Below are positions 1,586 through 5,452 of a stretch of 22,346 nt of DNA, piece after piece (the stretch's first letter is position 1; each line of letters starts with the position of its first letter). Made by a program: the position numbers and the translations under genes. The notes beneath the pieces were generated by a model. That model worked only from the letters and a program-made list of their open reading frames with translations, ran no database searches and was not told the DNA's origin. The DNA is from a virus, in the IMG/VR virus record IMGVR_UViG_3300030450_002758, positions 1 through 22,346 of that record; one strand, given 5' to 3'.

Positions 1586-1793
1586 AGTTTATACAAAATG
1601 GACTGGCTATTCTGAAATTATCGTAGATGCAAAAGATAAAAAGAAAGCTAGAGAATTGGTAAGTAAAGGAGATTATAACCCTAGTGATGAAATACATACA
1701 GGGAATGGTCTTGAATATGGTTATGATAATGAAGAAATATTAGAGGTAGAGGTAATTTCTGATGATAGTGGAATCCAGGAAAATCTAAGATGA
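1569..1793 (+). CDS. Paralogue of the preceding small protein (74 aa)
   Basis: Starts MTKAFKVYTKWTGYSEIIVD, then AKDKKKARELVSKGD, matching the FKV...Y...V-x-A-x-[ND]-K-[EK]-[EK]-A pattern of the gene before it. The C-terminal segment VEVISDDSGI also matches that gene's VKEISDDESI. Start: GGAG of the repeated junction seven bases before the ATG. A fourth, degenerate junction copy (1751-1765) lies inside its end and would start only an 8-codon stub, as if another cassette had been lost. Its last nine bases overlap the end of a minus-strand gene. Confidence 0.65.
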   Translation: MTKAFKVYTKWTGYSEIIVDAKDKKKARELVSKGDYNPSDEIHTGNGLEYGYDNEEILEVEVISDDSGIQENLR

Positions 1794-1949
1794 TCTGTAT
1801 TCTACTTCCAGACTGGCGACTATCGGGATTATTTCCCGATATTCGCTGTCTGTATATTCCCCGAAAATCTGAAAACCTAAATCGTCAATCACATACTCAA
1901 CAACGATACCCGACTCTGTTTTTAATACACTTCTACCAGTGTTTTTCAT
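1785..1949 (-). CDS. Small protein downstream of terminase small subunit (54 aa)
   Basis: Starts MKNTGRSVLKTESGIVVEYV and ends EYRSS. The ATG overlaps the terminase stop as ATGA (1946-1949), strong support for coupled translation. The composition suggests beta strands (GIVVEYVIDDLGFQIFGEYT). It contains one copy of the GTCGGG motif and a long hairpin within its second half. It converges on, and overlaps by nine bases, the plus-strand gene ending at 1793, and it is the last gene of the minus-strand operon. No family is recognised. Confidence 0.6.
   Translation of the reverse strand: MKNTGRSVLKTESGIVVEYVIDDLGFQIFGEYTDSEYREIIPIVASLEVEYRSS
1809..1852. other. Long imperfect hairpin at convergent transcript ends
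   Basis: CAGAC-GCGA-ATCGGGA (1809-1828) pairs with TCCCGAT-TCGC-GTCTG (1834-1852): 16 pairs with two small internal interruptions and a 5-base loop. No T-run follows on either strand, so it is not a textbook intrinsic terminator. Its place where two opposed transcripts end suggests termination or 3'-end protection. Confidence 0.45.
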
Positions 1950-2305
1950 TTTCTTTCCAATACTTTAGTTCCCGACTTATTCTCAATAATCCCGACCGAC
2001 TTCTCTCCGAGTAATTCTTGAAGTCTTCTTTCTACTTCGGGCCGACTCATTTGATCGATCTTCCCATGCAATACTTCCCGACGATCAACGATTAATCCCC
2101 CGACCTTCAATAACAATCCCTGGGCTTGAATCGCAGCGTTAAATGCACCTTTACCCCAAGCATCATCACGCAGTTTATATAGATCCTCAACCGCACGTTC
2201 ATGCGTTAATTCAAACTTCTTCTTTGCCTCGACCATCAAACGCTCATATTCCCGACGAACGTGTGCATATTTACTGGTTGTATTCTTACGCATATATCGC
2301 CCGAC
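1909..2305 (-). repeat. Seven same-orientation GTCGGG motifs in and after terS
   Basis: The plus-strand complement CCCGAC occurs at 1909, 1971, 1991, 2077, 2099, 2251 and 2300 (first base), never in the opposite orientation here. Three copies are GTCGGGAA on the minus strand. They fall in all three codon phases (R-R-E, S-G, V-G). Near matches lie at 1995, 2041, 2228 and 2557. By eye I found no other copy in the window. Confidence 0.7.
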
Positions 2306-2509
2306 TACGATAGGATTTTTATATCCTGCCTTCTTAGCAGCTTCGGCATACGTTAATTGTGGATCGTTGACTAAATTCCAAACTAATAGTCGTTGTCGTT
2401 TGGTTAAATGCTTTTCATCTTGATTTAGATATTCGATAGGCATTTCATCTGTTTCTTCAAGTGTCGGTTCTACTTTTACACTTTTTCTTATGTTTAAGTC
2501 TTTCGGCAT
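1946..2509 (-). CDS. terS: Terminase small subunit (Terminase_2-like)
   Basis: At 187 residues this has the usual size for a small terminase, the DNA-recognition subunit that marks phage DNA for packaging and hands it to the large ATPase/nuclease subunit. After an acidic 30-residue lead, residues 35-80 read HLTKRQRLLVWNLVNDPQLT then YAEAAKKAGYKNP, the helix-turn-helix pattern of the Terminase_2 family. Helical oligomerisation segments follow (AVEDLYKL, AFNAAIQAQGLLLKVGGLIVD). Start: ATG with GGAG 12 bases upstream. No large subunit is adjacent in the window, which is unusual. The gene carries six GTCGGG motifs. The family call is by pattern only. Confidence 0.75.
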   Translation of the reverse strand: MPKDLNIRKSVKVEPTLEETDEMPIEYLNQDEKHLTKRQRLLVWNLVNDPQLTYAEAAKKAGYKNPIVVGRYMRKNTTSKYAHVRREYERLMVEAKKKFELTHERAVEDLYKLRDDAWGKGAFNAAIQAQGLLLKVGGLIVDRREVLHGKIDQMSRPEVERRLQELLGEKSVGIIENKSGTKVLERK

Positions 2510-3258: not shown

Positions 3259-4104
3259 TTACAACTCTAAAACTTGTTGCGCAGTTCTATTTTTTTGCAT
3301 ACTGATATACTCGGCATTTAACTCGCAACCAATCCATTTTCTACCTAATTGCTGCGCTACCATTCCTGTTGTTCCGCTACCCATAAAAGGATCAAGTACC
3401 ACGCCATCTTTAGGACAACCAGCCAAAATACATGGCTCGATTAAATCAGGTGGAAATACAGCAAAGTGTGCGCCTTTAAATGGTTTTGTGGTTACTGTCC
3501 AAACTGATCGTTTATTTTTCTTTTCTGACTCAGCATCTTCCTTAATCGCTTCATTATCAAAATAATACTTAGGGTTTTTACTTAACAAGAAAATATATTC
3601 ATGTGCCTTTGTGCAACGATCTTGCACACTCTCTGGCATCGGGTTCGGCTTATTCCAGATAATATCTTGGCGTAAATACCAACCATCAGCTTGTAAAGCA
3701 AACGCCACGCGCCAAGGGATTCCAACTAAGTCTTTTTCTTTTAATCCGTCAATCTTATTGGCTCGCCTTGCCACTTCTTGAGGTAAATCTTGATTCGTGT
3801 TACTGACAGTTTGTTTTATCAATGATTGCCCTTTGCCTGGTCTGTAATTGTAATAACTGTCACCCAAGTTAAGCCAAACAGTTCCATCATCTCGCAACAC
3901 TCGTTTTACTTCTCTGAATACCTTAACTAAGTTTTCAACAAATTCTTCTGGCGTATCTTCCAAACCTAATTGTTCTTCTTCTTGATAATTTCTGAGGCCC
4001 CAATAAGGTGGAGAAGTAATACAGGTATTAATAGATTGCTCTGGCAATTCTTTTAATGTTTCTCGGCAATCGCCATACAAAGTTCTGTTAGTTTTAAAAT
4101 TCAA
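3259..4104 (-). CDS. Site-specific DNA amino-methyltransferase (N4-cytosine or N6-adenine, beta class)
   Basis: Transfers methyl from S-adenosylmethionine to an exocyclic amino group of a DNA base. The catalytic motif TSPPYW is near the N-terminus (residues 30-35) and the SAM-binding motif DPFMGSGTTG near the C-terminus (238-247), followed by WIGCELNAEY. This order defines the beta class, and 281 residues is normal. SPPY is common in N4-cytosine enzymes but also occurs in adenine enzymes, so the base is undecided. The only possible start is TTG at 4104: a TAG lies upstream in frame and no Met precedes SPPY. It overlaps the C5-cytosine methyltransferase by 11 bases. No restriction partner is seen, so it probably shields phage DNA. 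Confidence 0.85.
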   Translation of the reverse strand: MNFKTNRTLYGDCRETLKELPEQSINTCITSPPYWGLRNYQEEEQLGLEDTPEEFVENLVKVFREVKRVLRDDGTVWLNLGDSYYNYRPGKGQSLIKQTVSNTNQDLPQEVARRANKIDGLKEKDLVGIPWRVAFALQADGWYLRQDIIWNKPNPMPESVQDRCTKAHEYIFLLSKNPKYYFDNEAIKEDAESEKKNKRSVWTVTTKPFKGAHFAVFPPDLIEPCILAGCPKDGVVLDPFMGSGTTGMVAQQLGRKWIGCELNAEYISMQKNRTAQQVLEL

Positions 4105-5452
4105 ACCCGATTTGTCCTTTTCTCTCCTCTACCTCGCCACCTTGCTCGACAATGACCATATTTTTCAATATGTGACAAATAATATCTATCGTCCAGCCAT
4201 TCCCCAACATGTGGTAACGACGACTGTTACTAACGTGCGCGGTATAATTGTCATCAACTGTTTGTAGGCGTTCAGCTTCTATCGGGGTCAGTTTACGCCA
4301 ACGCATCTCGCTGTCTTTTTGTATTTGTATTATATGTTGCTTACTGGTATTTGCTGTCAGAGTGTTTGTTTTATCGTCATCTCGTTCAACCAAATGCCTC
4401 ATGTGTCTAGGCGACCAGTCTTTTCCTGTTCTTTTCTTATGTTCGGCTCTTATTTTGTTTGCTTCGGGTGTTCTTACTTCAGTCATACACTTAACCAATA
4501 AATTATTCTCTTGCCAAGAACTTGATGTAAGTGAAGGGGTTTTTCCGTCTTTTGCTCGAATACCACCTTTGTTCGTGCCACGCGGTTTCTGATAGATTGC
4601 AACCTTCGGTTCTCGGTTTCCACCCGAACAACTGTTCAAAGTAGGCGATTTTCCGTCAGGAGAGTACACTCGTTTCAAAATATCGTGACCATTTATCTCA
4701 GCAGCCACTCCTACTTGCTTGGGTTTATGTAATCTGCTCGTATCATCTTTAAAATAATTGTATGGCACTCCTTTGTGCCAATTAGCTGTCAAAGTGAAAG
4801 ATTTTTCAGTATCAGGCGTTTGTTCATATCTATCGGCTCGTCTTGAACCTTCTTGTTGCCACTTATCGTTACCTCTTTCCATGTAATCAATAGATTTTTG
4901 TTTGTAAAAGTGTTCTTGTCCTATCTCTGTTTCCAATATATCCCTGAGAACTATACCTCTATCTTCGGGTTCGTTAATCCCAGGTATATTAGTCCAATAG
5001 TATCTCCATCTGTTTTGTGCGCTGACTAACGCGCTATTCAATAGAATCGGTTCAACACCCACATGTTCTGTAATCACATTTAGATACTCTTTTTTCATTT
5101 TGACGTTCTCCAGGAGAAACCATTCAGGTTCGATCTCTTTCAGTAAACGGACAAACTCAAAAAACAATACCGATTGCGGATCATCAAAGGCCAATCTTTT
5201 ACCTGCAAAACTAAATCCAGTACAAGGCGAACCTGCCAGTATTATGTCTGGCTTTTCGGGTAATGATTCCAAAGATATATCCCTAACATCACCCAACTGT
5301 ACTGTATTTGGGTAGTTTGCTTGGGTGACTTTAATTGGATAAGGGTCTATTTCTGATGCGTAATATGTTTTGATTGGTATGCCTAAACGATTCAGAGCAA
5401 TCTGACCGCAAGACATACCATCAAATAAACTTAATACAACTTTAGGTTTCAT
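4094..5452 (-). CDS. DNA (cytosine-5-)-methyltransferase
   Basis: Methylates carbon 5 of cytosine in DNA using SAM. Motif I is LSLFDGMSCGQ (7-17); the catalytic loop GSPCTGFS has Cys77 and reads PCT where the family usually has PCQ. Motif VI ENV is at 115-117 and motif VIII QNRWR at 146-150. The C-terminal RKLTPIEAERLQ (386-397) and MLGNGW (415-420) are motifs IX and X. The target-recognition region (about 190-380) contains four repeats of a K-[ST]-x-[TS]-L-[TN]-[AS] element. The start overlaps the preceding stop (ATGA, 5449-5452). At 452 residues it is a full-length enzyme. With the neighbouring amino-methyltransferase it probably defends phage DNA against host restriction. Confidence 0.9.
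   Translation of the reverse strand: MKPKVVLSLFDGMSCGQIALNRLGIPIKTYYASEIDPYPIKVTQANYPNTVQLGDVRDISLESLPEKPDIILAGSPCTGFSFAGKRLAFDDPQSVLFFEFVRLLKEIEPEWFLLENVKMKKEYLNVITEHVGVEPILLNSALVSAQNRWRYYWTNIPGINEPEDRGIVLRDILETEIGQEHFYKQKSIDYMERGNDKWQQEGSRRADRYEQTPDTEKSFTLTANWHKGVPYNYFKDDTSRLHKPKQVGVAAEINGHDILKRVYSPDGKSPTLNSCSGGNREPKVAIYQKPRGTNKGGIRAKDGKTPSLTSSSWQENNLLVKCMTEVRTPEANKIRAEHKKRTGKDWSPRHMRHLVERDDDKTNTLTANTSKQHIIQIQKDSEMRWRKLTPIEAERLQTVDDNYTAHVSNSRRYHMLGNGWTIDIICHILKNMVIVEQGGEVEERKGQIGFEF

Follow-up and report, generated by a model that had tools for sequence, protein, structure and literature searches.

How does a small terminase find its own genome, and could a short word repeated in and around its gene take part in this? 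The question is raised by a 22,346-base fragment of an uncultured phage (GC 36.7%), referred to here as the window, in which the hexamer GTCGGG is concentrated at terS, the gene of the terminase small subunit. An earlier note, made from the letters of the window, had described seven copies of this hexamer on the minus strand and had proposed them as a candidate array for packaging recognition. Counting on both strands confirmed that there are exactly 7 copies, that all of them lie on the minus strand between 1909 and 2305, and that the rest of the window contains none on either strand. Six of the seven are inside the terS ORF and one is in a small ORF after terS (Table 1). As had also been noted, the sites occupy every codon phase (0, 1 and 2), the residues encoded differ (in terS, three VG, two RRE and one KSG; in the small ORF, one SG), and three of the seven sites are GTCGGGAA. 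The related word TCGGGA is restricted, within the window, to 1823-2577. The raw count of GTCGGG in the window is only moderately unusual, and 7 copies were also reached in 1 of 100 dinucleotide shuffles of the whole window; the exceptional features of the array are its clustering, its confinement to a single strand and its codon independence.

Table 1. Positions of the hexamers, genes and upstream elements in the window.
Feature	Position	Strand	Codon phase	Residues	Location	Word kept in relatives	Remarks
GTCGGG	2300..2305	minus	0	Val-Gly	terS		
GTCGGG (GTCGGGAA)	2251..2256	minus	1	Arg-Arg-Glu	terS		
GTCGGG	2099..2104	minus	0	Val-Gly	terS	74/79 with same residues	
GTCGGG (GTCGGGAA)	2077..2082	minus	1	Arg-Arg-Glu	terS	69/81	
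GTCGGG	1991..1996	minus	0	Val-Gly	terS		
GTCGGG (GTCGGGAA)	1971..1976	minus	2	Lys-Ser-Gly	terS	38/39	
GTCGGG	1909..1914	minus	2	Ser-Gly	small ORF after terS		
Small ORF after terS	1785..1949	minus					54 aa; holds the seventh hexamer; from the ORF list
terS, terminase small subunit	1946..2509	minus					187 aa; carries 6/7 hexamers; from profile and model matches
TTTTGTCA repeats (x8)	2640-2950	four per orientation			AT-rich DNA upstream of terS		candidate replication origin or operator
Two adjacent DNA methyltransferase genes	3259-5452	minus			just upstream of terS		N6/N4 type and C5-cytosine type

The gene that carries six of the hexamers encodes the small subunit of the terminase, whose DNA-binding domain (helix-turn-helix) is SF6/SPP1-like. 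The protein of the window matched phrog_1595 in PHROG with an E-value (0.00065) that is weak on its own; members of its family matched more strongly (phrog_51 down to 7e-12, and Pfam Terminase_2), and the family profile matched the solved small terminases of SF6 (3zqp, 4zc3; E about 4e-4) and Pam5. The AlphaFold model of TerS was of moderate confidence (pLDDT 65.6). A plain Foldseek search with this model returned nothing at E 0.001 or better, and VIA realignment of the Foldseek candidates recovered the small terminases of SF6, PaP3 and NV1. The model fitted the SF6 DNA-binding domain over 54-55 residues with an rmsd of 1.7-1.8 and a VIA Z of 6.8, which, as a Z below 8, is weak if taken alone and agrees with the sequence profile. 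The 54-aa ORF after terS had no match in family searches.

Protein constraint does not explain the array of the window, as the earlier note had argued. In 5,000 synonymous shuffles of the window terS, 6 copies were never reached (mean 0.72, maximum 4). A scan of IMG/VR yielded 261 encoded relatives, and the analysis went on with the best 80 of them, with 73-97% identity. These contigs come from metagenomes and are mostly fragmentary; counts from related sequences are not independent of one another, and the main figures were taken from non-redundant sets. All 80 of these best 80 of 261 relatives have 4-9 sense copies of GTCGGG in and just after terS, and no antisense copy there. Over a set of 21 non-redundant terS genes, sense copies number 114 and antisense copies 0, compared with a mean of 15.8 (sd 3.4) in synonymous shuffles, and the 18 one-letter variants of GTCGGG were near expectation in the same genes. 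The earlier note had expected the word to persist in relatives where the amino acids are kept, and this was borne out: the same residues were encoded with the same GTCGGG for VG in 74 of 79 cases, for RRE in 69/81, for SRE in 34/34 and for KSG in 38/39 and 20/20. The preference is local, as VG is encoded as GTCGGG in 7 of 8 cases in terS and in 0 of 202 in the remaining long ORFs of the window and of three long relatives, where the word is likewise used for none of 22 KSG, 8 RRE and 9 SRE. The positions of the sites are partly common among relatives and partly shifted, which suggests that single sites come and go while their number is kept. These comparisons strongly support the view that GTCGGG in the terS region is a polar DNA signal under selection. 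This makes terS an example of a protein-coding sequence shaped to fit a DNA signal, with codon choice following the word at these sites.

In the longer relatives, the zone of GTCGGG extends from terS to the vicinity of the terL-portal operon, for which TerL and portal were assigned in G002, and dense arrays (GTCGGGTGTCGGG, GTCGGGTCGGG) run through the next 3-8 kb as far as that operon. In the closest relative, L101, whose TerS is 97% identical and whose DNA is 98% identical to the left end of the window, dense arrays are located 3.4-4.7 kb after terS. Six genomes (G002, G003, G005, G006, G012 and G013) have GTCGGG packed at 5, 7, 8 and 11-12 bp in inter-operon gaps, in the leaders of minus-strand genes and downstream of terminator-like T-runs; ORFs in relatives were called by a simple longest-ORF rule, and the noncoding status of a given downstream array may be off in places. 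The rarity of the word elsewhere, on which the earlier proposal depended, extends to these genomes. G003 has 26 plus and no minus copies in the zone and 1 of each in its other 43.6 kb, and the plus/minus counts inside and outside the zone are 18/1 and 0/5 in G002, 28/0 and 0/2 in G012, and 23/0 and 0/1 in G013. The orientation of the arrays is unchanged over genes of either strand, which means that the signal is read from the DNA itself rather than from a single transcript. At the level of sequence comparison, these results demonstrate a strictly one-directional hexamer kept by DNA-level selection in terS and in clusters up to the terL-portal operon.

A gene-blind scan for GTCGGGTGTCGGGT was used to follow the word beyond the close relatives. 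The matches listed included many GC-rich chance ones, and among them most of the AT-rich ones with arrays carry the TerL or TerS of the clade, including TerS of 46-54% identity. One member of 42.8 kb, with a TerS of 48% and a primase-polymerase (Prim-Pol) of 59% identity, carries 13 copies; they begin in terS, reach about 5 kb past it and are all on its strand. In the diverged L118 and L127, one or two copies are left in terS, and the downstream arrays persist. The nearest named phages, HTVC023P, HTVC027P and DSL-LC04 (TerL 58-61%, TerS 31-34%), also have several kb between terS and terL. However, the HTVC023P and HTVC027P families, sisters with about 31% TerS identity, are without the GTCGGG array, although their TerL is 58-61% alike. 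The presence of the word in members with diverged TerS and its absence from the sister families indicate that it is a property of one clade. No prophage relatives were found in bacterial genomes, and the literature matches for GTCGGG with phage and packaging were all unrelated, by title.

What might read this signal? On balance, GTCGGG is probably an asymmetric recognition element for DNA packaging, forming a pac-type array, as judged from its placement and by analogy with known systems. First, the sites occupy terS and the stretch leading to the terL-portal operon and are rare elsewhere. Second, the array is kept down to 46-54% TerS identity and is absent from the sister TerS families at about 31%. 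Third, the known pac sites of P1, P22 and SPP1 are in or at terS. One part of the earlier proposal, a polar selected signal tied to the terS region, stands with strong support, and the other part, the terminase as its reader, is the best reading and one that we infer. A TerS oligomer would bind many weak, same-facing GTCGGG sites together, and this binding would mark viral concatemers as the packaging substrate; TerS would then recruit TerL, and the first cut would be made within the terS-to-terL zone. The orientation of the sites would set the direction of translocation, which would be toward the late genes if translocation follows the sites. Where coding constraint is relaxed, in inter-operon gaps and leaders, the sites are packed at 5-8 and 11-12 bp; inside terS they are placed wherever codons allow, with single positions turning over and their number kept. 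We also suggest, more tentatively and at somewhat less than even confidence, a kilobase one-directional packaging "runway" of about 20-28 hexamers from terS to the terL-portal operon, read jointly by a TerS oligomer, in which the code would be local site density and orientation, not a single pac sequence.

Among the known systems, the nearest precedent appears to be the pac site of phage P1, which consists of seven hexamers (TGATCA/G) inside pacA within 161 bp (PMC10028697). In both cases an irregular array, removable by synonymous changes, places about seven hexamers in a terminase gene, with 7 in and just after terS in the window and 4-9 in the best 80 of the 261 relatives. However, the P1 hexamers contain GATC and are under Dam methylation control, whereas GTCGGG is without GATC; and P1 pac is confined to its 161 bp, whereas GTCGGG is asymmetric, keeps one orientation over about 400 bp and forms dense arrays again kilobases away. 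The pac site of SPP1 comprises direct repeats at and in gene 1, its small-terminase gene (PMC4737164, PMC6316719). It resembles the present array in having direct repeats at or in the small-terminase gene and the same type of TerS DNA-binding domain, to which both profile and model point here, but it consists of three sets of longer boxes, at the gene 1 promoters and start, around one cut site, whereas here one strict 6-mer occurs in many copies through terS and kilobases downstream. Phage P22 likewise has an asymmetric signal within terS, but as one 22-bp site (PMC9611059) and not as an array. Like pac sites in general, the array lies in or near the small-terminase gene, which holds 6/7 copies in the window. 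Because it has no GATC, it is not P1-type, and because its layout differs, it is not SPP1-type; it would be a pac-like signal outside both classes.

Several observations count against packaging. A zone of 5-8 kb is far longer than the pac sites of P1 or SPP1, only one or two copies are inside terS of L118 and L127, and the SF6 TerS DNA-binding domain bound pac repeats with no clear sequence preference in vitro (PMC4737164). In the sister families, a k-mer approach, which is blind to a degenerate motif, revealed no clear counterpart of the array. The contigs had no physical end in common at the arrays; this absence is what headful packaging predicts, but it is weak evidence either way. If the packaging reading is correct, it would bear on how small terminases find their own genome, and the word could serve as a sequence-only marker of the likely packaging zone and its direction in uncultured phages of the clade. 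A strict polar hexamer that can be scrambled without protein change, and that comes with dozens of natural variants, is a clean substrate for binding and structural work.

The main rival, and the strongest alternative to packaging, is a signal linked to replication. GTCGGG would then be a strand-specific start or loading site for the phage Prim-Pol or its helicase, beside an origin just upstream of terS, with one-way priming through the adjoining kilobases; we regard this as unlikely. Priming sites would be polar, the phage encodes its own Prim-Pol, which is co-inherited with the arrays in every relative checked, and the Prim-Pol of phage NrS-1 requires an 8-nt template word (PMC7102993). In addition, a conserved TTTTGTCA cluster with repeats in both orientations, origin- or operator-like, spans 2652-2945 of the window, just upstream of terS. 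Each sub-clade inspected has it at comparable distances from the terS start (about -436 to -105), and it is a candidate replication origin or operator; in comparison with iterons, it is a more origin-like element than GTCGGG. However, the GTCGGG sites gather in terS and ahead of the late operon rather than around Prim-Pol, which is about 10 kb from terS in the window. Lagging-strand sites would be expected genome-wide, but GTCGGG is rare outside its zone, and the NrS-1 word is present only twice, once per strand (PMC7102993). Mosaic genomes separating TerS from Prim-Pol were not found among the relatives checked; Prim-Pol and an exonuclease were co-inherited in every one, so that the contributions of TerS and the replication module could not be told apart by this comparison. 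The two methyltransferase genes upstream of terS in the window are present in some relatives, not all.

The remaining explanations, namely transcription control, Chi-like activity and effects of composition, suit the data less well than a replication signal does. Under transcription control, a regulator of the phage, which might be a self-repressing TerS, would bind the sites to switch expression between the late operon and the early minus-strand genes; this is quite improbable. Such a role would suit the dense arrays, which are placed in gene leaders, downstream of terminator-like T-runs and in the intergenic DNA preceding the late operon, and SPP1 TerS represses its own synthesis according to a title cited in PMC6316719. 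In contrast, six sites with irregular spacing are inside the terS coding sequence, the orientation is constant over genes of both strands, the distance to promoters is not fixed, and the spacing is not in step with the helical turn. A Chi-like hotspot word of host RecBCD/AddAB, which would protect or recombine phage DNA in one direction, would be polar, short and G-rich as GTCGGG is, and more copies would work better; yet Chi helps anywhere on a chromosome, whereas GTCGGG occupies one zone, is rare over the rest of the phage genomes and is absent from sister families, making this explanation very unlikely. An effect of chance, codons or composition, including G-richness or the G-quadruplexes that clustered GGG runs of the intergenic arrays could form, is largely refuted, and has hardly any probability left, by the synonymous shuffles, the finding that the GTC half is strictly required, the 0 antisense copies and the conservation to 46% TerS identity, the single whole-window shuffle in 100 with 7 copies notwithstanding.

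Two words of the HTVC023P family were considered as counterparts of the array and rejected. The first, CTAGGAAA (the CTAGGAA cluster), is of mixed orientation, with 82 sense and 29 antisense copies in the 400 bases before terS; farther upstream, there are 4 of each in 92 kb of HTVC023P relatives. Its position (for example, L276 11680-11764) is that of the TTTTGTCA cluster in the clade of the window. The second, CTAACAA, in the terS-terL zone (for example, L283 and L296), is polar in noncoding DNA (79 sense, 1 antisense), yet it is not arrayed, and it recurs at many small genes, just 5' of the ribosome-binding site and start codon. In the HTVC027P family (L359-L438), AGAAGA occurs 168 times in terS, compared with 99 in synonymous shuffles, and the protein is K/E-rich; the longer CAGAAGA, with 70 sense and 0 antisense copies in these terS genes, is possibly a weak coding-embedded signal.
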